From an uncultured Bacteroidales bacterium (lineage in GTDB: Bacteria > Bacteroidota > Bacteroidia > Bacteroidales > Bacteroidaceae): DNA of 64,000 nt. This document shows, piece by piece, positions 23,828 through 34,535 of the stretch. The stretch covers positions 30,930 through 94,929 of the forward strand of contig CACWFY010000003.1 of NCBI GenBank assembly GCA_902760345.1. Reading direction: 5' to 3'. Made by a program: the position numbers and the translations under genes. Below the pieces are notes generated by a model. It did no database searches, was not told where the DNA came from, and worked only from the letters and a program-made list of their open reading frames with translations. Numbering within the stretch: position 1 is the stretch's first letter; each line of letters opens with the position of its first letter.

Positions 23828-25927
23828 TTATTCTAAAATCAACAAGCATTCGCAGCCCTTCATAATCTGTTTGCCGGCGGGGTAGCTCTGGTGGCGCACC
23901 TTTCCGCGACCATGGATTTTTACGCGTAGGCCACGGTGTTCCAGTTCGTATACCGCATCTTTGGCACCCATACCTGTCACGTCGGGACAGACAGACTGTT
24001 TGTACTTGGGCGACTGGCCGACACGTTTGTTGATGTCCAGCTTGCTCAGCACGTAGTTGGCAGCCGTCGTGTTGCCGTTTTTGACATCAGGAATGATGAC
24101 GGACTTCTCGTCGTGGGCAGCATCGACGCTCATCTTCAGATTGCGGGCCATGACACCCTCAGCAATATGGTGGAAGACGACACCGCTCATACCACCTCCA
24201 GAAGCCGGCAGTCCCGACTTCTTTAGACAGACAATACATGTATAGTGCGGATTGTCGGCAGGGAAGTAGCCGGCAAAACTCAGCCAGTAGCGGGTGGTTC
24301 CTGAATGATAGCCGCCATGTTCGTCGGCAATCTGTGCCGTACCTGTCTTTCCGGCAACCTTGAAGAGTTTCGATCCTGCTTTGCGTCCCAGACCCTGACT
24401 GACAACATGCTCCAGAATGGTTTGTATGGTCTTGATGGCTTTCGGTTTGGCAATACGGTTCTTAATGACTTCTGGTGGGAATTCCGCAATGGTTTCACCG
24501 TTCTTCACTACTTTCTTGACAAACCGCGGACGCATCATCTTACCATTGTTGGCAATGGCATTATAGAAGGTGACGGTATTGATGGGTGCTATCTGCGTCT
24601 CATAGCCGATGGACATCCAGGGCAGAGCGGTCTTGCTCCAGTTGACATATTGTCCGCGCTGGTTCTTCTGCGGCATGCGGATGTGGGGCGGCTGGTAACC
24701 TACCAGTGGCAGTTTCAGATCTTCGTGGATACCCACACGATACAGTCCCTTGACGTAGCGCTCGGGATTACTGCCGTAGAAACGGTCGATGACGTGGCTG
24801 ACACCGATGTTCGAACTGACCTCCAGCGTACGGGCGACATTGATGTCTTGATAACCGCCGCGACGCCAGTTATGGTCTTTCATCCAACGGCCATGCATCT
24901 GTTGTACACCGCTACCGGTATGGATGACGTAACTTGTGTCCACTACCTCATCATCAAGGGCAACCAGGAATGAGGCGACCTTGAATACCGAACCGGGCTC
25001 GCAACGGTAGCTGATGGCCGAATTGACGGCCTCGATATATTTACCTTCTTCGTTGCGCACCATGTTGACGATGGCCTTCACGTCTCCCGTCTCTACCTCC
25101 ATGAGGATGGCGACACCCATATCGCCGCCGATGAGTTTCAGCTCATCCAGTACTGCACGTTCGGCGAGATCCTGCATGTTTACGTCGATGGTCGTCACGA
25201 TGTCGGCACCGTCGACGGGCAGTGTCACGGGAATGTTCATGTACTTGTTCAGAACCTTACGGCGTCCTGTAATGCCAGGCGTGCCACGCAGGATGCTATC
25301 GTACGATAGTTCCAGACCATAGTATGCTGAGTCCTTGGCACCATACATGCCACCTACCGTACGCAGTGCCAGCGTGCCGAAAGGACGGTTGCGCGAGTTG
25401 AATTCCTCCTCGTGGAAGCCACTCTTGTATTTGGGTAGGTTAAAGAACGGCAACTGTTTCACCTCCATATAGGTATTGTAGTTGATGCGCTTTGGCCAGA
25501 TAGGCCAGTGGCGGGCACCTACGCTGCCGTTTTTGTTTTCCTTCTGCCTGCCTTTCTCCAGCCATACCTTGAATTCATGGGCCGTAATCGGTGGAAATAT
25601 CTTGCTCAGGCCTTCACAGACAGAGTCCAGTTTGTCTTGCCATAGTGAGTCGTTCTTCTCGAAAGCTGCTGCCTGATAATCCATGAAGATCTTGTATTCG
25701 GGTATCGACGAGGCCATCAACTGTCCGTCACAGCTGAGGATGTTGCCGCGGTTGGGTTTGACCATCACGCTGTCGCGCTTCAGTCGGTCGGCTACCTCGG
25801 TCCAATACTGTTTCTTGGCAGTCATAATATATAGCGCCTTGCCAATGACGGCAAAGCCGATGATAGTCAGCACGACCGCTATCGCCATGTAGCGGGGCAT
25901 CACTTTATCGTTGTCGAACTTACTCAT
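23828..25927 (-). CDS. ftsI: Septal transpeptidase FtsI (penicillin-binding protein) with PASTA domains
   Basis: A 699-residue class B penicillin-binding protein. One N-terminal membrane helix (about residues 13-35) precedes the dimerisation domain and the transpeptidase domain with all active-site motifs: SVFK at 313-316, SSN at 371-373 and KTGT at 527-530. Residues from about 608 form one complete and one further PASTA-like unit (IIPDVKNGN and [12 protein letters not shown]), as in Bacteroidota FtsI. It crosslinks septal peptidoglycan with FtsW. Confidence 0.95.
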
Positions 25928-25954
25928 TTCTTGTTTTCTTACTTCTCACCTCTA

Positions 25955-26404
25955 TTACTCAGGCACCTGAATGATGTAAGGCGGCTGGTCAGCCTGATGT
26001 AGCAGTGAGTCTTTGTTCTCTTTCAGTATCTCCAGCACATGACTCTCACGGCATTTCTCCGTCAGCGTGCTCGACGACGACAGCGCCTTGAACTTCGCAT
26101 CCTTGAGGTCGTTCTCCAGTTTGTCTATGGTCAGCAGGTCTTGCTGGCACTGATAGCGGAAAGCCACATAGACAATGGTGAATGCCACGATGACCAGAAA
26201 CAGCCAGATTTGTGAACGTACAGTCTGCGTAGTCAGCAGGTCGCCGCCCAGAATGGTACGCAGCTTTAACTGTTGCGATGGCTTCGGGTCTTCTTCCGTA
26301 GCCGTCTCCTTGATTTTCTTCAGCGTTTCTGTCAGTTTGCTCTCTGGCGATTCCTGGACCTCAGGACTTTCAGGTTGCTCAATCTTTATGTTGTCGTCTT
26401 CCAT
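25955..26404 (-). CDS. ftsL: FtsL-like division protein
   Basis: A 149-residue bitopic protein: an acidic, proline-rich cytoplasmic tail of about 70 residues, one membrane helix (IWLFLVIVAFTIVYVAF, about 85-101), and a short periplasmic coiled coil (DKLENDLKDAKFKALSSSS). Sequence similarity to FtsL is weak, but size, topology and position between rsmH and ftsI fit the FtsL-like family of Bacteroidota. It would act with FtsQ and a DivIC/FtsB-like protein encoded elsewhere. Confidence 0.88.
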   Translation of the reverse strand: MEDDNIKIEQPESPEVQESPESKLTETLKKIKETATEEDPKPSQQLKLRTILGGDLLTTQTVRSQIWLFLVIVAFTIVYVAFRYQCQQDLLTIDKLENDLKDAKFKALSSSSTLTEKCRESHVLEILKENKDSLLHQADQPPYIIQVPE

Positions 26405-26409
26405 ATGGG

Positions 26410-27345
26410 TTATATCTTTTCTGCTATTCTTAGTTTGGCACTGCGGCTACGTGGGTTCTCTTGCTGTTCGTCGTCAGTCGGGGTGATGACCTTGCAGACG
26501 GTTTTCAGCGGACAGTGGATGCGTCCGAAAAAGTCTTGCTCTACTTTCCCTTCGGCATTGCCGGCCTTCATTACGTTCTTGACGATACGGTCTTCCAACG
26601 AATGGTAGGTGATGACGCTCAGCCTGCCACCTTCTGCCAACAGTTCCGTAGTACCTTTCAGCATGTCACGTAGGGCATCCATCTCGTGATTGACCTCGAT
26701 GCGTAGGGCTTGGAACAGACGGGCTATGTCTTTCTTTAGCGCGGCATTGACGATGGTCAGTTGTCCTTCTTCCTGTATTGTCTCAATACCTAGCACATCG
26801 AGCAGCTGTCCCGTAGTTTTGATGTGCTCCTGCTGGCGTGCCGTAACGATGGTCTTGGCCAGTCGACGGGCATTCTTCAGTTCGCCATACAGGTAGAATA
26901 CGTCGGCCAGATGCTCTTCCGTGTAGTCGTTCAGCACGTTTGCGGCAGTCATCCCAGCCCGCTTGTTCATGCGCATGTCCAGAGGAGCCTCAAAGCGGAA
27001 CGAAAAGCCGCGGGTCTCGTCGTCGAAGTGGTGGCTCGACACACCGAGGTCGGCCAGCAGTCCGTTGATTTTCTCCACGCCGTAGTAGTGCATCCAGTTG
27101 CTGATATATCTAAAGTTGCTGCGTACGAAGGTAAATCTATCATCATCGACGATATTTTTTTCCGCATCAGCATCCTGGTCGAAGCTGTATAGGTGTCCAT
27201 TCTTGCCTAGTCGCGACAAAATCTCCCGCGAGTGGCCGCCACCGCCGAAGGTGACATCTACATAAATGCCGTCGGACTGGATGTCCAGTCCGTCGACGCT
27301 TTCTTTTAGGAGTACGGGTACATGATATGTCTCGGCTGTCTTCAT
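26410..27345 (-). CDS. rsmH: 16S rRNA (cytosine1402-N4)-methyltransferase RsmH
   Basis: A 311-residue SAM-dependent methyltransferase (MraW) that modifies C1402 in the decoding centre of 16S rRNA. The SAM motif DVTFGGGGHS, the LADLGVSSHHFD block and the late YHSLEDRIVK motif are present. It is the second gene of the division cluster and starts 32 nt after mraZ. Confidence 0.97.
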   Translation of the reverse strand: MKTAETYHVPVLLKESVDGLDIQSDGIYVDVTFGGGGHSREILSRLGKNGHLYSFDQDADAEKNIVDDDRFTFVRSNFRYISNWMHYYGVEKINGLLADLGVSSHHFDDETRGFSFRFEAPLDMRMNKRAGMTAANVLNDYTEEHLADVFYLYGELKNARRLAKTIVTARQQEHIKTTGQLLDVLGIETIQEEGQLTIVNAALKKDIARLFQALRIEVNHEMDALRDMLKGTTELLAEGGRLSVITYHSLEDRIVKNVMKAGNAEGKVEQDFFGRIHCPLKTVCKVITPTDDEQQENPRSRSAKLRIAEKI

Positions 27346-27369
27346 AGTCTTGATGGAATGATTTTCCCT

Positions 27370-27397
27370 CTCACCACTTACTTCTCGTCACTCGCCT
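27370..27397. repeat. 7-bp degenerate repeat at the mraZ 3' end
   Basis: Four units CTCACCA, CTTACTT, CTCGTCA, CTCGCCT. It spans the mraZ stop codon and encodes its last residues. Confidence 0.6.
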
Positions 27398-27839
27398 CTT
27401 CTTTCATCAGCTCTTCAAGAGCAGCTCCAAAGGCTTCGGGTTGCATCTGGTGTTCTTCGGCTTTGGTGGTGCTCCATATCTCGATGGTGTCCCCCATGCC
27501 AACAAACTTGATGTCTTGTACGATGTCGGCCATGCGCTGGTAGCGCTTGGGTATCAGGAAACGACCGTTGCCGTCGAGTGTCAGGATCTCCACTTCTGAG
27601 ACAAACTGTCGGAATACCTGCTGGTGCTGCTTGTTCCAGCGGTTCAGCCGTTGGCGCAGGGCATCTGTCTGTTCGTTCCACACGGATTCCGGGTAGAGTA
27701 CCAGGCACGGCTGGAACACATCCTTACGCAGAATGATATGCTCTTCACCGTCCGCCAGCAGTGTCTTGCGGAAGATGGCGGGCAGGAAAGCACGTCCTTT
27801 AGCGTCGATTTTGGCCTCTATGTTTCCTAAGAATCGCAT
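27378..27839 (-). CDS. mraZ: Transcriptional regulator MraZ
   Basis: A 153-residue protein with two swapped-hairpin AbrB-like domains, the MraZ layout: IEAKIDAKGRAFLPAIFRK near the N-terminus and LDGNGRFLIPKRYQR in the second half. MraZ binds direct repeats upstream of its own operon and represses it in E. coli. Three TGGGG repeats with 10-bp spacing lie directly upstream here (27889-27913). The ATG at 27839 matches the family start; an in-frame extension to 27914 would run across the promoter. Confidence 0.96.
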   Translation of the reverse strand: MRFLGNIEAKIDAKGRAFLPAIFRKTLLADGEEHIILRKDVFQPCLVLYPESVWNEQTDALRQRLNRWNKQHQQVFRQFVSEVEILTLDGNGRFLIPKRYQRMADIVQDIKFVGMGDTIEIWSTTKAEEHQMQPEAFGAALEELMKEEASDEK

Positions 27840-27871
27840 GTGTACTTCTTTAATTAATGTGAATTCGGATG

Positions 27872-27879
27872 CAAAGATA
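27872..27879 (-). promoter_or_regulatory. -7 element TATCTTTG of the division cluster promoter
   Basis: Matches TAnnTTTG on the minus strand, 32 nt upstream of the mraZ ATG. It lies just downstream of the MraZ box array. Confidence 0.7.
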
Positions 27880-27888
27880 CACAATTCT

Positions 27889-27913
27889 CCCCACAATCCC
27901 CCACAATTCCCCA
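27889..27913 (-). promoter_or_regulatory. Predicted MraZ operator (three TGGGG boxes)
   Basis: On the minus strand TGGGG occurs at 27913-27909, 27903-27899 and 27893-27889, exactly 10 bp apart. This is the known MraZ recognition arrangement (TGGGN separated by 5 nt). The boxes cover the region just upstream of the -7 element, where bound MraZ could block the sigma factor. Confidence 0.85.
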
Positions 27914-27997
27914 CAAAATTTTAGCTAATAAATGCTAAAGATTATCTTTTTTGCACATTTTAGTACCTTTAGTGCAATTGTTTTTAAATAAAATCAC

Positions 27998-28005
27998 TAA
28001 CTTTG
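27998..28005 (+). promoter_or_regulatory. -7 element TAACTTTG of the glycine lipid/PqqD operon
   Basis: Matches TAnnTTTG with a -33 TTG at 27978-27980; the first ATG is 25 nt downstream. Confidence 0.7.
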
Positions 28006-28030
28006 CAATCGTTAAGAAGAAAGTGAGAGA

Positions 28031-28855
28031 ATGGGACAAGTCACTGAGAAGATTATCGACATCGACCAAATACTGAAAAGTAAATTGGGCGCCAAAGCTA
28101 AATGGGTGCCCAGTCCGTTGGTGTCATGGCTCAAACGCATCGCTCATCAGGATGAGGTCAACGGATTTCTGTGGAGCGCACGTGATAAGGAGGGAACACC
28201 GTGGCTGGATGCAACGTTGGAGTACCTGCAGGTCACACTTGAGGTGGTGGGGCGCGAGAATTTGCCCGACCCCAATGACGGAAGGCTTTACACGTTTGTG
28301 TCGAACCATCCGTTGGGTGGGCAGGATGGTGTGACACTAGGTGCTATCATAGGCAATCACTACGACTCGCGGTTTCGCTATCTGGTCAATGACCTGCTGA
28401 TGTATCTCCCGGGTTTAGCACCACTATGTATCCCTATCAACAAAACCGGCAAACAGAGCCGTAATTTTCCAGCGATGGTCAAGGCGGGTTTTGAGAGCGA
28501 CAACCATATGCTGATGTTCCCTGCCGGACTGTGTTCACGCCGCCACAATGGCGTTATCCGTGATATTCCTTGGTCGAAGACCTTTATCACGAAGAGCGTG
28601 GAGTACAAGCGCGACATTGTTCCTATCCGCTTCGGAGGCCGTAACAGCGACTTTTTCTACCGCTTGGCCAATTTCTCCGACCGCTTCCTGCCGTTTAATC
28701 TGGCCATGCTCTTTCTCGTCGACGAGATGTATAAGAATGTCGGCAAGACCTTTCGCGTGACCATCGGCAAACCTATTCCCTGGCAAACGTTCGACAAGAG
28801 TAAAACGCCGTCGGAATGGGCACAATATGTACAAGATATCGTCTACAACCTTTAA
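28031..28855 (+). CDS. glsA: GlsA-like O-acyltransferase (glycine lipid synthesis)
   Basis: A 274-residue PlsC-fold acyltransferase. The catalytic block is SNHPLGGQDG at residues 91-100 (histidine 93, aspartate 99) and a later MFPAGLCSRR block stands for the acceptor phosphate motif. In Bacteroides the pair GlsB/GlsA makes N-acyl glycine (commendamide) and then O-acylates it to glycine lipid. The next gene is the GlsB-type N-acyltransferase, 5 nt away, which supports this role. Homology to GlsA is judged from motifs and context, not an alignment. First gene of a six-gene operon. Confidence 0.8.
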   Translation: MGQVTEKIIDIDQILKSKLGAKAKWVPSPLVSWLKRIAHQDEVNGFLWSARDKEGTPWLDATLEYLQVTLEVVGRENLPDPNDGRLYTFVSNHPLGGQDGVTLGAIIGNHYDSRFRYLVNDLLMYLPGLAPLCIPINKTGKQSRNFPAMVKAGFESDNHMLMFPAGLCSRRHNGVIRDIPWSKTFITKSVEYKRDIVPIRFGGRNSDFFYRLANFSDRFLPFNLAMLFLVDEMYKNVGKTFRVTIGKPIPWQTFDKSKTPSEWAQYVQDIVYNL

Positions 28856-28860
28856 CAAAT

Positions 28861-29853
28861 ATGGAACAACCGATTATCTCTCCCATTTCCAAGGAGGTGC
28901 TCAAGAGTGAGCTGACTCCTGACAAGCAGTTGCGAATGACCAACAAGAGCAATAATGAAATCTATATCATCACTGCTCACAATGCTCCCAACGTCATGCG
29001 CGAGATAGGTCGTCTACGCGAGATTGCTTTCCGTGAGGCCGGTGGTGGCACTGGTAAGGAGATTGATATCGACGAGTTTGATACCTGCGAGAACTGCTAC
29101 AAACAGCTTATCGTCTGGAATCCCGACGAAGAGGAGATCATCGGTGGCTACCGCTACCTGCTGGGTACTGACTGGCAGTACGACGATAATGGACAGCCCA
29201 TTCTGGCTACGAGTCATATGTTCCATTTCTCTGAGCGTTTCATCCGAGACTATGCTCCCTGGACGGTAGAGCTTGGCCGTTCGTTTGTGTCATTGCCCTA
29301 TCAGTCGTCGCGTATGGGTGCCAAGAGTCTCTTTGCTCTCGATAATCTATGGGATGGCTTGGGCGCCCTGACAGTCATCCGTCCAAATGTCAAATACTAT
29401 TTCGGCAAGATGACGATGTACCCCAGCTACATCCGTAAGGGTCGCGACATGATACTCTATTTTCTGAAGAAGCATTTCGATGATAAGGATAACCTTATTA
29501 TCCCGATGAAACCGCTGGAATTGGAAACTGATCCTGCTGAACTCGAGCGTTTGTTTTGTGGACATAACTTCCGTGAAGATTATAAGATTTTGAACGGAGA
29601 AATTCGTCGGTTGGGCTATAATATTCCCCCGCTGGTGAACGCATATATGGGTCTGTCGCCGACGATGAAGCTCTTCGGTACGGCCATCAACTATGGCTTT
29701 GGCGATGTCGAGGAGACAGGTATCCTGATTGCCGTTGACGAGATACTGGAAGACAAGCGCAAGCGCCATATCGACTCGTTTATCCGTGAGCACCATGACG
29801 AGATTGAGATTACGTCTGGAGCCAACAAGATTATCTATCGCTACAAACAATAA
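28861..29853 (+). CDS. glsB: GlsB-like glycine N-acyltransferase (OlsB-related GNAT fold)
   Basis: A 330-residue protein of the OlsB/hemolysin-type acyltransferase family, which loads a 3-hydroxy fatty acid from acyl carrier protein onto an amino acid nitrogen. Family features are the early RLREIAFREAGGGTGKEID block (about residues 45-63), EEIIGGYRYLLG, and VELGRSFV around residue 140. In Bacteroides the homologue uses glycine. The ATG at 28861 follows the glsA stop by 5 nt; the in-frame codon at 28816 is inside glsA. The gene order glsA-glsB is noted as seen; the Bacteroides operon also pairs these genes. Confidence 0.82.
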   Translation: MEQPIISPISKEVLKSELTPDKQLRMTNKSNNEIYIITAHNAPNVMREIGRLREIAFREAGGGTGKEIDIDEFDTCENCYKQLIVWNPDEEEIIGGYRYLLGTDWQYDDNGQPILATSHMFHFSERFIRDYAPWTVELGRSFVSLPYQSSRMGAKSLFALDNLWDGLGALTVIRPNVKYYFGKMTMYPSYIRKGRDMILYFLKKHFDDKDNLIIPMKPLELETDPAELERLFCGHNFREDYKILNGEIRRLGYNIPPLVNAYMGLSPTMKLFGTAINYGFGDVEETGILIAVDEILEDKRKRHIDSFIREHHDEIEITSGANKIIYRYKQ

Positions 29854-29858
29854 ATTAC

Positions 29859-30761
29859 ATGTCGGTGCACTACTATCGGGTAGCCGGTCACACCTTTTCC
29901 GTGACACTAGGGAATCATGAGTCCATTGTCGATGAAATGGGACAATATGAGCCGTTTTCCGTGTTGGCTACCGATGAGGTAATGTTTAATGTTACCGTGG
30001 TTGCTTCCGATGGGTTCCCTGCCCATGATGACATCACTATAGAGATGAGCCAGGACGATGACGGCTCACAGATTCTCGCGGGCCGTATGGGCGATCAGCC
30101 GTATTTTGAGTTTCATCTGTGGGGACGCTGTGCTGCCCGTATGGTGACGGATGTGCAGTATCGTCATGCTACAGTGTTGCTCGTCGACGAGCCGTTATTC
30201 GGTATCAACAATGCGCTGATGGTTATGTATGCCCTCTCGACCGCCTGTCAGCAGACGGCGCTTTTCCATTCTTCTGTGGTTAGCTATGACGGTCGTGGCT
30301 ATATGTTCCTGGGCAAGAGTGGCACGGGTAAGAGCACACATTCCAGCCTGTGGTTGCGCTATATTGAGGGTACGCAACTCGTCAACGACGATAATCCCGT
30401 AGTACGCCAGATGCCCGATGGATTCTATGTTTTTGGTTCTCCCTGGAGTGGTAAGACACCCTGCTATCGTAACGTATCCTATCCGTTAGGTGCAATTGTT
30501 CAGCTCAGTCAGGCGCCCTATAATAAGATAGTGCGTTTGTCGCCGCTGATGGCCTATGCCGCCTTGGTGCCTTCCATCTCTGGCAAGCGATGGGATAGTA
30601 TGGTCGCCGAGGGACTCCACGAGACGGAGAACCTATTGGCAGGTCATGTTGCTGTATGGCATCTGGAGTGTCTACCTGATGAGGGTGCTGCCCTCCTCTG
30701 CTCTGAAACCGTGAGAAATCCCGTTGAAATCGCTAAAAACGATGACAAACATATCCGATAA
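29859..30761 (+). CDS. HPr-kinase-like P-loop protein
   Basis: A 300-residue protein with a P-loop GKSGTGKST at residues 152-160 in an HPr-kinase-like fold (upstream LFHSSVV, downstream NDDNPVV and GSPWSGKT). Members of this family beside PqqD-like genes occur in peptide modification clusters (some lasso peptide loci have a kinase of this type). The N-terminal 110 residues are poorly conserved and may bind the substrate. It sits 5 nt after glsB and overlaps the S26 peptidase gene by 20 nt, so it is part of the same operon. The substrate is unknown. Confidence 0.75.
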   Translation: MSVHYYRVAGHTFSVTLGNHESIVDEMGQYEPFSVLATDEVMFNVTVVASDGFPAHDDITIEMSQDDDGSQILAGRMGDQPYFEFHLWGRCAARMVTDVQYRHATVLLVDEPLFGINNALMVMYALSTACQQTALFHSSVVSYDGRGYMFLGKSGTGKSTHSSLWLRYIEGTQLVNDDNPVVRQMPDGFYVFGSPWSGKTPCYRNVSYPLGAIVQLSQAPYNKIVRLSPLMAYAALVPSISGKRWDSMVAEGLHETENLLAGHVAVWHLECLPDEGAALLCSETVRNPVEIAKNDDKHIR

Positions 30762-31194
30762 TGATATCATCCGTAGTGCCATTAACCTCGTGAATGAAGG
30801 CATGCGCGTCACCTTCCCGGTGAAGGGATATAGCATGTTGCCTTTCATTATCGGTGGCAAGGAGAGTGTCGACCTCGTCAAACCTACAGAACTGCATGTC
30901 GGTGACGTGGTACTGGCATGGGTCGAACAATGTCGGTATGTGGTGCATCGTATTATCCGCATTGACGGGGATGCCGTCACACTGATGGGCGACGGTAATG
31001 TTGCAGGAGTGGAGCACTGCACCGTAGCCGATATAGCGGCTTTGGCGGTTAATGTCGTGACGCCTGCCGGACGTCATCATCCATTATATAACCCGTGGCG
31101 GCGCCAAACCAGTCGCTTGTGGTGGCGCCTGCTGCCCGTACGTCGCTGGATATTGGCGATATATCGAAGGACGTGGCTGAGATTTTTTTATTAA
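30742..31194 (+). CDS. S24/S26-family signal-peptidase-like serine protease (Ser-His type)
   Basis: A 150-residue protease-like protein. The nucleophile block is GYSMLPFI with Ser31, and the general-base position reads VVHRIIRID with His69 in place of the lysine of LepB, as in ER-type and archaeal signal peptidases. GDGN follows at 83-86. There is no clear N-terminal membrane anchor; the C-terminus (WWRLLPVRRWILAIYRRTW) is hydrophobic and basic and may associate with the membrane. It overlaps the kinase gene, and the PqqD gene starts 4 nt later. Likely role: cleaving a leader or processing an exported product. Confidence 0.75.
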   Translation: MTNISDNDIIRSAINLVNEGMRVTFPVKGYSMLPFIIGGKESVDLVKPTELHVGDVVLAWVEQCRYVVHRIIRIDGDAVTLMGDGNVAGVEHCTVADIAALAVNVVTPAGRHHPLYNPWRRQTSRLWWRLLPVRRWILAIYRRTWLRFFY

Positions 31195-31198
31195 TGAT

Positions 31199-31468
31199 AT
31201 GAAGCAAAAAGAAGGATTTATCTTGCGCGAGGTTTGTGGCGAGCGCGTCATTGTGGCTGAAGGCTTGAAGACCATTGATTTTGGCAAGCTGATTAGTCTT
31301 AATGAAACCGCTGCTTGGCTTTGGGGAAAAGCTGGTGAAATGGGCGATTTTTCTATCGACCAGCTCACTGATGCCCTGTGTGCCGAGTATGAGGTCGACG
31401 CCGCTCAAGCCCGTAAGGATGTGACCGCTATGGTCAGCCAGTGGCAGGAGATAGGAATTATAGAATGA
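31199..31468 (+). CDS. PqqD-like peptide-binding protein (RRE fold)
   Basis: An 89-residue PqqD-family protein. PqqD folds bind the leader peptide of ribosomally made, modified peptides. Family features are FILREVCGERVIV at the start, the SLNETAAWLWGK core helix (about 34-45) and the C-terminal helix with AQARKDVTAMVSQW. It starts 4 nt after the peptidase gene and overlaps the ABC transporter gene by ATGA. No precursor peptide or cyclase gene lies in the operon, so its partner peptide, if any, must be elsewhere. Confidence 0.82.
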   Translation: MKQKEGFILREVCGERVIVAEGLKTIDFGKLISLNETAAWLWGKAGEMGDFSIDQLTDALCAEYEVDAAQARKDVTAMVSQWQEIGIIE

Positions 31469-33096
31469 GATATATCCGCTGGATATGGACTAACATGGCG
31501 GGCATCCGGTGGAACACCGCCATTCGCATTATTACCGGCATCACTCAGGTGCTGTTGGGCTTGCTGATGATATGGCTCAGCAAGCAGTTTATCGATATTA
31601 CTATTCGTGTGGGTACGCGCGATGACGTGTTGCGCATGTGTACCTTACTTATAAGTGTTGTCGTGACAGGTATCTTGCTGCGCCAGTTCTACTACTATCT
31701 CTCGGTTAAGGCCAGCACGCACCAGTCTAACATCATCCGTCTGCGTGTGTTCAGTAATTTGTTCCGCCGTCAGATGTATGAAGACCAACTGCATTCAGGT
31801 GATGTGGCCTCGCGACTGAGCAAGGATATCGACACCGTGGCCGATGCTACCACCTCACTTTTGCCCCAATTCATCGTGACGGGAACCCAACTGGTCGGTG
31901 CCTTCCTGCTATTGGCAAAGATGGACCTGACGTTGGCCTTGGCACTGTTGCTTGTGACCCCGTTCCTAGCTGCCTTCGGAAAGTTCTTCGCCCATCGCAT
32001 GCGTGCGATGACCACCGATATCCGCCAGCAGGAGAGCGCCATACAGATGCAGGTTCAAGAGGGTATGGAATATAGCGACGTCATTCGTTCGCTGGGTTCC
32101 GAACAGTGGGTAGCTGGCCGTCTGAACAAGTTACAAGAATTGCTGATGGGACGTGTGCTGCGCCGTAGCCGCTTTACTATTATCACACGCCTGCTGATGG
32201 CTTTTGCCTTCAGCTTAGGATATCTACTGGCCTTCATTTGGGGTGGTTTGCAGTTGCGTGCCGGAGTCATCACCTTTGGAGTGATGACATCGTTCCTGCA
32301 GCTGGTTGGCCAGATACAACACCCCATTCTTAACCTGCTCAACATGTTGCCGCAGTTCATCTCTGCCACGGCAAGTATCGACCGTATCGATGAACTGGAA
32401 CGCTCGGCTAAGCAGCGCAAGCAAGCAGAGAAGCAGGTGATGCTCCAAGGTCCCGTGGGTGTGCAGGCCAGCGAAGTGACCTTCGGCTATGCTTCGGGCG
32501 ACCGCCTGATTCTCGACCACTTCAGTCACCTGTTCCGTCCAGGCAGCAAGACCGCTATACTGGGACAGACTGGTATCGGCAAGACCACGCTCTTCCGACT
32601 GATGCTTTCGTTCATACAGCCTCGCGAGGGTAGTCTGACGTTGTTCAACCGCGAGATCTCCGAAGCGGTGAGCGACCATACGCGTGGCAACTTCGTCTTC
32701 GTGCCTCAGGGAAATACGCTGATGAGCGGCACCATCCGTTATAATCTGCAGTTGGCGCGTCCCACGGCCACCGACAAGGAACTGTGCGACGTACTCGATG
32801 TCGCTATGGCCGACTTTGTGTTTAGCCTGCCTAACGGTTTGGACACCAAACTCGGAGAGCGTGGTGCAGGACTCAGCGAGGGTCAGGCTCAACGTATCGG
32901 TATTGCCCGTGGTCTGTTGCGTCCTGGTCCTATCATGCTGCTCGACGAAATCAGCTCGTCGCTGGATGAGGCCACCGAACAGGAGCTCTTCCGTCGTTTG
33001 TTCGTCTATTGCCATGAAAAAACCATGATATTCATCACCCACCGCATGGCCGTCTGTGAGCTGTGCGACGATGTTCTCCGCTTAGGAGAAGATTAA
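31465..33096 (+). CDS. ABC exporter (fused membrane and ATPase domains)
   Basis: A 543-residue half-transporter: about six membrane helices (residues 15-300) then the nucleotide-binding domain with Walker A GQTGIGKTT (near 374), signature LSEGQAQRIGIARG and Walker B IMLLDEISSSLDE. No peptidase C39 domain is fused. As last gene of the operon it would export the product of the modifying enzymes, either a lipid such as an acyl glycine or a peptide. The ATG at 31465 overlaps the pqqD stop codon. Confidence 0.88.
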   Translation: MRYIRWIWTNMAGIRWNTAIRIITGITQVLLGLLMIWLSKQFIDITIRVGTRDDVLRMCTLLISVVVTGILLRQFYYYLSVKASTHQSNIIRLRVFSNLFRRQMYEDQLHSGDVASRLSKDIDTVADATTSLLPQFIVTGTQLVGAFLLLAKMDLTLALALLLVTPFLAAFGKFFAHRMRAMTTDIRQQESAIQMQVQEGMEYSDVIRSLGSEQWVAGRLNKLQELLMGRVLRRSRFTIITRLLMAFAFSLGYLLAFIWGGLQLRAGVITFGVMTSFLQLVGQIQHPILNLLNMLPQFISATASIDRIDELERSAKQRKQAEKQVMLQGPVGVQASEVTFGYASGDRLILDHFSHLFRPGSKTAILGQTGIGKTTLFRLMLSFIQPREGSLTLFNREISEAVSDHTRGNFVFVPQGNTLMSGTIRYNLQLARPTATDKELCDVLDVAMADFVFSLPNGLDTKLGERGAGLSEGQAQRIGIARGLLRPGPIMLLDEISSSLDEATEQELFRRLFVYCHEKTMIFITHRMAVCELCDDVLRLGED

Positions 33097-33109: not shown

Positions 33110-34450
33110 TTATATAATAGGCAGGGAGATACCGTTGATCTTCTGGTAGACATCGAGGGCATAGACATCGGTCATGCCGCTGATGTAATCAATGACGGCC
33201 ATGAGGCGGGTCTCCAGGTCGGGGGCGTCGATATGATACTGACTCGACACGCGGCCGATGAGCTGTTTTGAGTAGTAGCGGTCGGGGTGTATGACGGCTT
33301 CGACCATCTGCTGCATCAGCGTTTCCATGATTTTGTAACCTGACAGTTCTACATCCAAGACAGGTCGGCTACGGTAGATGCGAGCCTCCGACAGGCGGGC
33401 ACAACGGCGGTAGGCCTCGCACTGGCGTTCGCTGACATGGTCGATGAGCGACCCCGTAAAGGTACCGTTGAGTATTTCCTGTTCGTGATCCATAAACGTC
33501 TTTACACACTCGTTCTCGAGTTTGCCGATGACGCTGGCACGCAGATAGACGATCTGTTCGTTGGGGTCAGTGAGCTGTTCCTGTTCGATGCGCTGGCGCA
33601 GATGCTGCTGGGTCTCCTCGTCGAAGAAAGCCAGCATGAGTTGGGAAGCCTCGTCGAACGACACAATCTTCAGCTTATGGGCATCTTCGAGGTCCATGAT
33701 CTCGTAGCAGATGTCGTCAGCAGCTTCTACAAGATACACCAGCGGATGGCGGGCGTAGCGCAGGGGTTTACCAGGCTTTGATAGACAAATAATGCCCATT
33801 TCATCGGCAATTCGTTGGTAGATTTCCTGCTCGCTTTGGAAGAATCCGAACTTCCCTTTTTTGCTGGCGGCCGACGAGGCAAAGGGATATTTGACGATGC
33901 TGGCAATGGTCGAGTAGGTCATCACGAAACCACCTGGGCGGCGACCCTTGAACTGATGGGTCAGCAAACGGAAGGCATTGGCATTACCCTCGAAGTGGGT
34001 GATGTCGTCCCAAAAAGGTTCCGATATCTCTTTGCGCAACGAGCGTCCGGGACCTTCGGTGAAAAACGTCTGGATGGCCTTCTCACCACTATGTCCGAAC
34101 GGTGGGTTACCCAGGTCGTGGGCTAGACAGGCCGTACTGACAATCTGTCCGATTTGTTCGACGAGCGTACCCTTCAGTTCTGGGTGGGTGGTGTTGACCA
34201 ACCGCTGGGCGACATCGTTACCCAGCGACATACCTACGCTGGCCACCTCGAGCGAGTGCGTCAGACGGTTATGTACAAATACGCTGCCCGGCAGCGGGAA
34301 TACCTGTGTCTTGTTTTGCAGTCGACGAAACGGTGCCGAGAAAATCAGGCGGTCGTAGTCGCGCTTAAACTCAGTACGGTCATCGTGGCGCTCGATGTGG
34401 CGCTGTTCCTGGCCGAGTCGCTTGTTTGAAATCAGTCTTGTCCATTCCAT
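33110..34450 (-). CDS. dgt: dGTP triphosphohydrolase
   Basis: A 446-residue HD-domain enzyme that splits dGTP to deoxyguanosine and triphosphate. The HD ligands are visible: HNRLTHSLEVA, then AHDLGNPPFGHSGE. The N-terminal block RDYDRLIFSAPFRRLQNKTQ is typical. The ATG at 34450 is chosen over an in-frame codon at 34459 because that one lies inside the -7 element (34457-34464). This leaves a leader of a few bases at most. It is divergent from dut, a functional pair in nucleotide pool control. Confidence 0.95.
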   Translation of the reverse strand: MEWTRLISNKRLGQEQRHIERHDDRTEFKRDYDRLIFSAPFRRLQNKTQVFPLPGSVFVHNRLTHSLEVASVGMSLGNDVAQRLVNTTHPELKGTLVEQIGQIVSTACLAHDLGNPPFGHSGEKAIQTFFTEGPGRSLRKEISEPFWDDITHFEGNANAFRLLTHQFKGRRPGGFVMTYSTIASIVKYPFASSAASKKGKFGFFQSEQEIYQRIADEMGIICLSKPGKPLRYARHPLVYLVEAADDICYEIMDLEDAHKLKIVSFDEASQLMLAFFDEETQQHLRQRIEQEQLTDPNEQIVYLRASVIGKLENECVKTFMDHEQEILNGTFTGSLIDHVSERQCEAYRRCARLSEARIYRSRPVLDVELSGYKIMETLMQQMVEAVIHPDRYYSKQLIGRVSSQYHIDAPDLETRLMAVIDYISGMTDVYALDVYQKINGISLPII

Positions 34451-34456
34451 GGGTTG

Positions 34457-34464
34457 CAAAATTA
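34457..34464 (-). promoter_or_regulatory. -7 element TAATTTTG for dgt
   Basis: TAnnTTTG match ending 6 nt before the dgt ATG, implying a leaderless or nearly leaderless transcript. Confidence 0.55.
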
Positions 34465-34527: not shown

Positions 34528-34535
34528 TACCTTTG
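34528..34535 (+). promoter_or_regulatory. -7 element TACCTTTG for the dut operon
   Basis: Perfect TAnnTTTG, 24 nt before the dut ATG. Confidence 0.7.

Follow-up and report, generated by a model that had tools for sequence, protein, structure and literature searches.

The subject of this analysis is a compact gene array in a 64,000-nucleotide (nt) stretch of contig CACWFY010000003.1 (positions 30,930 to 94,929) from GCA_902760345.1, the assembly of an uncultured Bacteroidales bacterium; we call this whole stretch the window and its genome G000, with other sampled genomes and fetched loci numbered as Gnnn and Lnnn. The array runs on the plus strand from 28031 to 33096 and joins an ordinary glycine-lipid pair to four genes that probably form an inserted, trans-acting cassette for leader-peptide processing and export, similar to those of ribosomally synthesized and posttranslationally modified peptides (RiPPs).

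Gene content and organization of the locus

The array begins with glsA (28031 to 28855), encoding a lyso-glycine-lipid O-acyltransferase (NF053697, 395.7 bits against a cut-off of 260), and glsB (28861 to 29853), encoding a glycine N-acyltransferase (NF053696, 533.7 bits against 300). Both products pass NCBIfam equivalog cut-offs, and glsB has a single match in G000. They are followed by an HprK/ScmC-like P-loop kinase (29859 to 30761), an S24/S26-type Ser/His peptidase predicted to remove leaders (30742 to 31194), a PqqD-like protein of the discrete lasso B1 type of RiPP precursor recognition element (RRE; 31199 to 31468, PF05402 at 61.5 bits against 23.4), and an ATP-binding cassette (ABC) exporter with fused membrane and ATPase domains (31465 to 33096, PF00664 and PF00005 above cut-off). 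The spacing from glsA to the exporter is, in order, 5, 5, -20, 4, and -4 nt. A promoter-like element, TAACTTTGC, lies ahead of glsA at 27998 to 28006 on the plus strand; it matches TANNTTTGC exactly and we take it to be a Bacteroidales-type -7 element, with the next plus-strand match to the pattern only at 34528. The six consecutive genes are a real operon-like unit behind a single promoter-like element, as the original prediction had held on both counts.

Neither the kinase nor the peptidase reaches any curated cut-off in Pfam or NCBIfam (TIGR00679 at 21.1 and ScmC at 19.6 bits for the kinase, TIGR02228 at 23.6 bits for the peptidase), and their assignment comes from conserved residues and distant structural relatives. 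The kinase motifs GxSGTGKST and NDD are invariant across an alignment of 15 relatives, and its profile finds weak matches among solved structures to phosphoenolpyruvate carboxykinase (1ii2, E = 0.018) and HprK (1ko7, E = 0.076). Likewise, Ser31, His69, and a GDGN motif are invariant across 18 relatives of the peptidase, with weak profile matches to LexA, signal peptidase I, and SEC11A; no membrane anchor is apparent in this protein as judged by eye, without a predictor. The closest solved relatives of the PqqD profile are the lasso-type RREs TfuB1 (6jx3, E = 1.3e-4) and 9x90 (E = 1.1e-3), and the protein scores below the NCBIfam cut-offs for lasso PqqD proteins (28.6 of 70 and 28.5 of 80 bits). 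No C39 peptidase domain was found among the Pfam matches of the exporter.

Association of the cassette with glycine lipid genes

The kinase, S26-type peptidase, PqqD, and ABC genes form a cassette independent of the gls pair. In a sample of 60 genomes of the genus, glsB occurs in 59, with one match apiece, and the kinase in 50, adjoining glsB in only three (G000, G055, and G040). A search of 249 genus genomes found the kinase at E ≤ 1e-75 in 54; among the 30 best loci of that search, for which adjacency was examined, glsB lies directly upstream in eight, all of them top-scoring, and was not seen in the available flanks of the other 22, some of which are short (213 nt in L223, 515 nt in L221). 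The ninth-best locus (L221, in G187) holds the nearest cassette outside the gls clade, with no glsB within 515 nt upstream. By eye, promoter-like sequence and a stretch in which no long reading frame is clear precede this cassette, whose kinase is 71% identical. Named loci, by which we mean the best 80 of 581 relatives, give the same picture: glsB is upstream in four (L084 to L087) and was not seen in the covered stretches of the other 76. The nearest named relatives of the window genome within this set are rumen Prevotella-type metagenome-assembled genomes (MAGs). A cultured rumen strain, Segatella baroniae B14 (L126), has a related cassette in which kinase, S26-type peptidase, and nucleotidyltransferase genes are seen.

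A tree of 91 kinases, from which duplicates, L085, proteins longer than 330 amino acids, and most type-B rows (see below) were excluded and in which the bootstrap had not fully settled, places six gls-linked kinases in one clade with support of 100/94; G106, G154, G110, G203, and G219 do not appear in it under those handles. Because these six kinases form a single clade, the arrangement has been kept in several species. The corresponding empty site is also found, with glsB and dgt abutting in G037, G035, and G050 at spacings of 4, 3, and -4 nt. In the window, the cassette stands between glsB and dgt (33110 to 34459, minus strand; a dGTPase family member with 363.7 bits against 152.35 for TIGR01353), and in G055 and G040 other genes lie downstream of it. 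Eleven gls loci that have no cassette next to them were fetched: dgt abuts glsB in three, lies farther downstream in two (L070 and L071), and other genes follow in six. The pattern is most simply explained by a single insertion, followed by vertical descent and later rearrangement on the downstream side.

The original prediction had raised a functional tie to glycine lipids or a lipidated product. In a reading of this kind, cassette and lipid enzymes would cooperate, and what they make or export would be an aminoacylated glycine lipid or a peptide with a lipid attached. One promoter-like element, tight spacing, and a juxtaposition kept in eight sampled genomes are what such cooperation would lead one to expect. 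We nevertheless discarded the idea that the cassette has a gls function because of the gene distribution above, in which nearly every genome has glsB and few have the kinase beside it, the nearest gls-less cassette shows no glsB in its upstream flank, and most named loci show none in the stretch covered; the scoring of GlsA and GlsB as ordinary equivalogs speaks against cooperation as well, and we regard it as highly unlikely. The linkage is lineage specific and probably incidental to function: by the refuting condition set in the original prediction it is not purely accidental, as the six gls-linked kinases in the tree form one clade, and it is not general either.

A candidate family of precursor peptides

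The alternative offered in the original prediction, in which the operon serves peptides whose precursor gene lies far away, is supported. Related cassettes in G007 and G040 are preceded by a peptide of 41 to 46 amino acids and then by a radical S-adenosylmethionine (radical SAM) enzyme. The best matches of this enzyme, RiPP SPASM maturases, all stay under their cut-offs. Radical SAM variants with the same peptide leader occur in L034, L035, L036, and L155, and at other loci this leader lies upstream of a PF14907 nucleotidyltransferase and the kinase. The shared leader reads KKx[YF]xxPxMxVxxLx5LLAGS and is followed by variable cores. Aligned on [YF]xxP, 80 distinct peptides give the consensus KKx[YF]xKPxMxVVxLx5LLAGS; beyond the serine at +20, information drops to no more than 1 bit, which marks the step from leader to core. 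The [YF]xxP motif itself is present in 78 of the 80, partly by construction because the initial search demanded it; the LLAGS end was not required. That regular-expression search returned 43 matches, of which 22 were chosen by eye as seeds and 21 (chance matches, duplicates, and members not needed) were left. None of ten peptides tested has a Pfam family at E ≤ 1, and NCBIfam entries match them only far below cut-offs. The YxxP motif is a characterized lasso recognition motif, and RRE groups including PqqD and FusE are described as recognizing W/Y/LxxP/L/I sequences (PMC12710340).

The position of these peptides ties them to the cassette in part of its relatives. Across 94 loci of type A, the type to which the gls-linked cassettes belong, the profile found 31 peptides at E ≤ 0.01, and 21 of these, in 16 loci, are on the same strand as the kinase and no more than 2.5 kb upstream, a zone that makes up 8.4% of strand-bases (p = 5e-16). 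A second profile, built from 47 scattered peptides alone, placed 17 of its 27 matches in the same zone, in 13 loci (p = 2e-12), the peptides that trained it having first been found with the earlier profile; it gave zero matches in the window and zero in type-B loci. Exact duplicates (L115, L129, and L145) were dropped from both tests and near-duplicates (such as L107/L108 and L114/L151) were kept. Short peptides with the leader and a variable core lie beside the machinery in 16 of the 94 related loci and not at the window locus; neither the regular expression nor either profile found one anywhere in the window, in line with the original prediction.

The scan for short peptides with a common leader did find members elsewhere in the genome: G000 encodes six at E ≤ 0.01, all on other contigs. 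Four of these are independent, because two were rows of the 26-row profile, and one of those two (C46) has a stop inside the aligned stretch, its match overrunning a 42-amino-acid frame. An early single-sequence search of G000 had given three matches at E values of 0.7 to 1.2, two of which later became strong under the profile, being rows of it. Counts in the remaining seven gls-linked genomes are 21, 25, 7, 7, 5, 15, and 8 peptides, and G040 carries further type-A copies besides the gls-linked one. Taken together, the sequences point to an uncatalogued YxxP...LLAGS peptide family, encoded in trans, as the likely substrates of the cassette.

Ten of the 80 named loci lie in MAGs labeled Fibrobacter (L111, L117, L123, L124, L125, L128, L130, L135, L149, and L150), and six of the ten have one to three peptides upstream. 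These cassettes may reflect transfer between rumen phyla or mis-binning.

Co-occurrence of peptides and cassettes

Peptides and cassettes also co-occur at the level of whole genomes. The median number of peptides in the 60-genome sample is 8 in the 14 genomes with a type-A cassette and drops to 1.5 in the 36 that have only type B and to 1 in the 10 with neither; the difference between type A and the rest has a p value of 5e-5, and of 0.004 among genomes at least 90% complete, with no correction for phylogeny. In 151 genomes of the family, a peptide at E ≤ 0.001 was found in 56 of 123 that have a kinase of either type and in 3 of 28 that have none (p = 3.5e-4), G370 being counted with the latter by its absence from the kinase match list. 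Within this family sample, type-A-like genomes carry peptides in 8 of 9 cases and other kinase-positive genomes in 48 of 114 (p = 0.008). In six of the family genomes, picked by eye from the matches, a peptide and a kinase are less than 5 kb apart, where a rough estimate would expect about 0.5.

Several observations weigh against assigning the peptides to the cassette. No peptide occupies the tested upstream zone in 78 of the 94 type-A loci, the window cassette has no local peptide, and cassette genes occur in none of the 40 stretches that we fetched around scattered peptides. Of the six kinase-near peptides in the family sample, a single one (in G346) has the upstream, same-strand position. 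The others are all downstream of the kinase, three of them on the opposite strand and two on its own strand, and for one of these two the kinase match is weak. Five of the 10 genomes without a kinase match carry peptides (12 in G001, 9 in G056, and 2 each in G023, G032, and G054); their completeness is 79% for G001, 62% for G056, 56% for G023, 76% for G054, and 97% for G032. At least one peptide is present in 24 of the 36 type-B-only genomes, with as many as 10 in G050 and 11 in G051, and G045 has type A and zero peptides. The statistics of both position and co-occurrence ignore phylogeny and the presence of multiple peptides per locus. Finally, type-B cassettes share the kinase, S26-type peptidase, and PqqD genes, but the loci fetched contain neither an ABC gene nor a peptide, and because of this the three proteins may have other substrates.

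These type-B sets are divergent from the window cassette, and in the 32 loci where we followed them (L038 to L060 and L072 to L080) they stand behind rpoD, labeled in 31, often with an HtrA-type protease too. A gene for a secreted-looking protein of 130 to 220 amino acids lies directly upstream of the kinase in these loci.

The peptide-free cassettes, the peptides in half of the genomes without a kinase match, and the type-B cassettes without peptides nearby all favor a reading in which the cassette has another substrate and the YxxP peptides belong with surface proteins as their partners, served by different machinery and captured near cassettes in sub-lineages only. We consider this unlikely, though it deserves to be taken seriously, given the strong positional enrichment on the operon strand, seen also in Fibrobacter-labeled loci, the fit of the leader motif to a lasso-type RRE, and the genome-level co-occurrence of peptides and cassettes.

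Genomic setting of the scattered peptides

The 40 stretches around scattered matches were picked by hand and are not a random sample; they allowed 50 peptides to be examined in context. A protein ending in a YDLxGR...KGxYIxNGKKxxxK-like tail lies within 100 nt upstream of 24 of the 50 (3 of 657 control open reading frames [ORFs]), and a lipoprotein within 100 nt downstream of 18 (23 of 657 control ORFs), the controls being drawn from loci that had been selected because they carry kinase or gls genes; an earlier, narrower lipoprotein pattern gave 9 instead of 18. Eight of the 50 adjoin neither. Three of six lipoproteins tested match the fimbrillin-like family PF13149. The tail has no Pfam name in five proteins tested and no NCBIfam name in four tested.

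In L176 to L179, L181, L183, and others, the protein with this tail is followed by the peptide gene 0 to 57 nt on. The tail resembles a sorting or anchoring tail.

Relation to known peptide systems

The cassette belongs with RRE-guided peptide systems and would work like a lasso-type front end. Paeninodin-type lasso maturation shares with it a discrete PqqD-like RRE, a YxxP-type leader, an HPr-kinase-like gene, and an ABC exporter, and some relatives of the cassette also share the nucleotidyltransferase. For the RRE PadeB1, leader binding with a Kd of 5.3 nM has been reported (PMC5067487). In contrast to that system, the cassette has an S26-type Ser/His peptidase and no B2 protease over cut-off, includes no cyclase among its genes, and has candidate precursors that lie away from it and a leader that ends in LLAGS.

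That the cassette is a degenerate or unusual lasso-peptide system is suggested by the lasso-type RRE, the YxxP leader, the kinase, and the PF14907 nucleotidyltransferase of some relatives, and rumen lasso clusters with HPr kinase, PqqD, and nucleotidyltransferase genes have been reported (PMC7533575). The lasso-type features found here are the discrete B1-type RRE and YxxP in peptides that we infer to be served by the cassette. We give this reading hardly any credence. Lasso membership was rejected because the B2 transglutaminase-like protease is missing: PF13471 is over cut-off in none of the eight gls-linked genomes, with a single match below cut-off (17.7 bits, in G000), and an S26-type peptidase stands in place of the lasso protease. 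No lasso cyclase domain was found in the six genes with Pfam or NCBIfam, no search for one having been made across the whole window or the genome.

Among other systems, SynChlorMet (ScmC/ScmD) and HPr-rel-A likewise pair an HprK-like kinase with a PqqD-like chaperone, and the proteins of the window fall below their family cut-offs (19.6 of 125 bits for ScmC, 16.5 of 200 for HprK_rel_A, and 19 of 35 for PqqD_rel_X). The radical SAM/peptidase-containing ABC transporter (PCAT) clusters of Bacteroidales, which are described as having mostly GG leaders and C39-type PCATs (PMC10352776), resemble the cassette in that genes for maturation and export accompany small peptides with leaders; they differ from it in that the peptidase of the cassette is of S26 type and the leader is YxxP...LLAGS. 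The precursors of prochlorosins are dispersed in the genome. Like the system proposed here, prochlorosins combine one machinery with many precursors that have a common leader and variable cores, the machinery being the promiscuous ProcM (PMC10783134), but the enzymes and leader are different, and in our case the precursor genes often stand beside genes for surface proteins.

The window PqqD protein is the same sort of RRE as the orphans noted with RRE-Finder, without lasso peptidase or cyclase partners among the six genes. In that work, almost 8,000 proteins were best matched by the discrete lasso-type model and only about 4,000 were accompanied by a lasso peptidase and cyclase, the authors naming possible false positives for the remainder (PMC7470986). 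Unlike for those orphans, a candidate substrate family and a partner peptidase can be named here, which gives one group of orphan discrete lasso-type RREs candidate substrates and a peptidase that may remove their leaders at a predicted site. It also offers a genomic logic of many precursors paired with surface proteins, and it turns the binding partners of orphan RREs into a question that can be put directly to cultured rumen bacteria. We found no description of the system in the open-licence literature searched.

Proposed function of the cassette

We consider it probable that the array combines the gls pair with an inserted, trans-acting, RiPP-like cassette for leader-peptide processing and export. 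The movable cassette was probably inserted once behind glsB, in the common ancestor of a small clade of rumen Prevotella-type bacteria, and is presumably now driven by the gls promoter, where steady expression would suffice. Its substrates would be the small peptides with the leader KKx[YF]xxPxMxVxxLx5LLAGS that are encoded elsewhere in the genome. Gene content, the relatives, and the leader motif together suggest a route of binding, cleavage, modification, and export. PqqD would first bind the YxxP leader, as we infer from its relation to lasso-type RREs and from the published motif. The apparently cytoplasmic Ser/His S26-type peptidase would then probably cut after the small-residue end of LLAGS, since conservation ends there and the A-x-S arrangement, with one small residue at the very end and another two places before it, resembles a signal-peptidase site. 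Modification of the core is suggested by the HprK-like kinase, which may phosphorylate the peptide, and by the PF14907 nucleotidyltransferase or radical SAM enzyme of some relatives, which might make further changes. The ABC protein would finally export the product; that the product acts with the surface proteins of neighboring genes is speculative.

More tentatively, the cassette may be the center of a genome-wide trans-acting system in rumen Prevotella and relatives, in which one cassette would serve up to about 25 dispersed peptides in a genome, with an adhesin- or fimbrillin-like surface protein coupled to many of these. Mature, perhaps phosphorylated, peptides might then be released with these surface proteins or act on them, as signals or surface modifiers; we regard this wider picture as possible rather than expected.

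Surroundings of the array

Divergent from glsA, on the minus strand at 23828 to 27914, lie mraZ-, rsmH-, ftsL-, and ftsI-like ORFs, which we take to be a division and cell-wall cluster. The TANNTTTGC pattern has 35 matches in the window where shuffled sequences give an expectation of 6.35, an excess that makes it a handy promoter marker for this genome.

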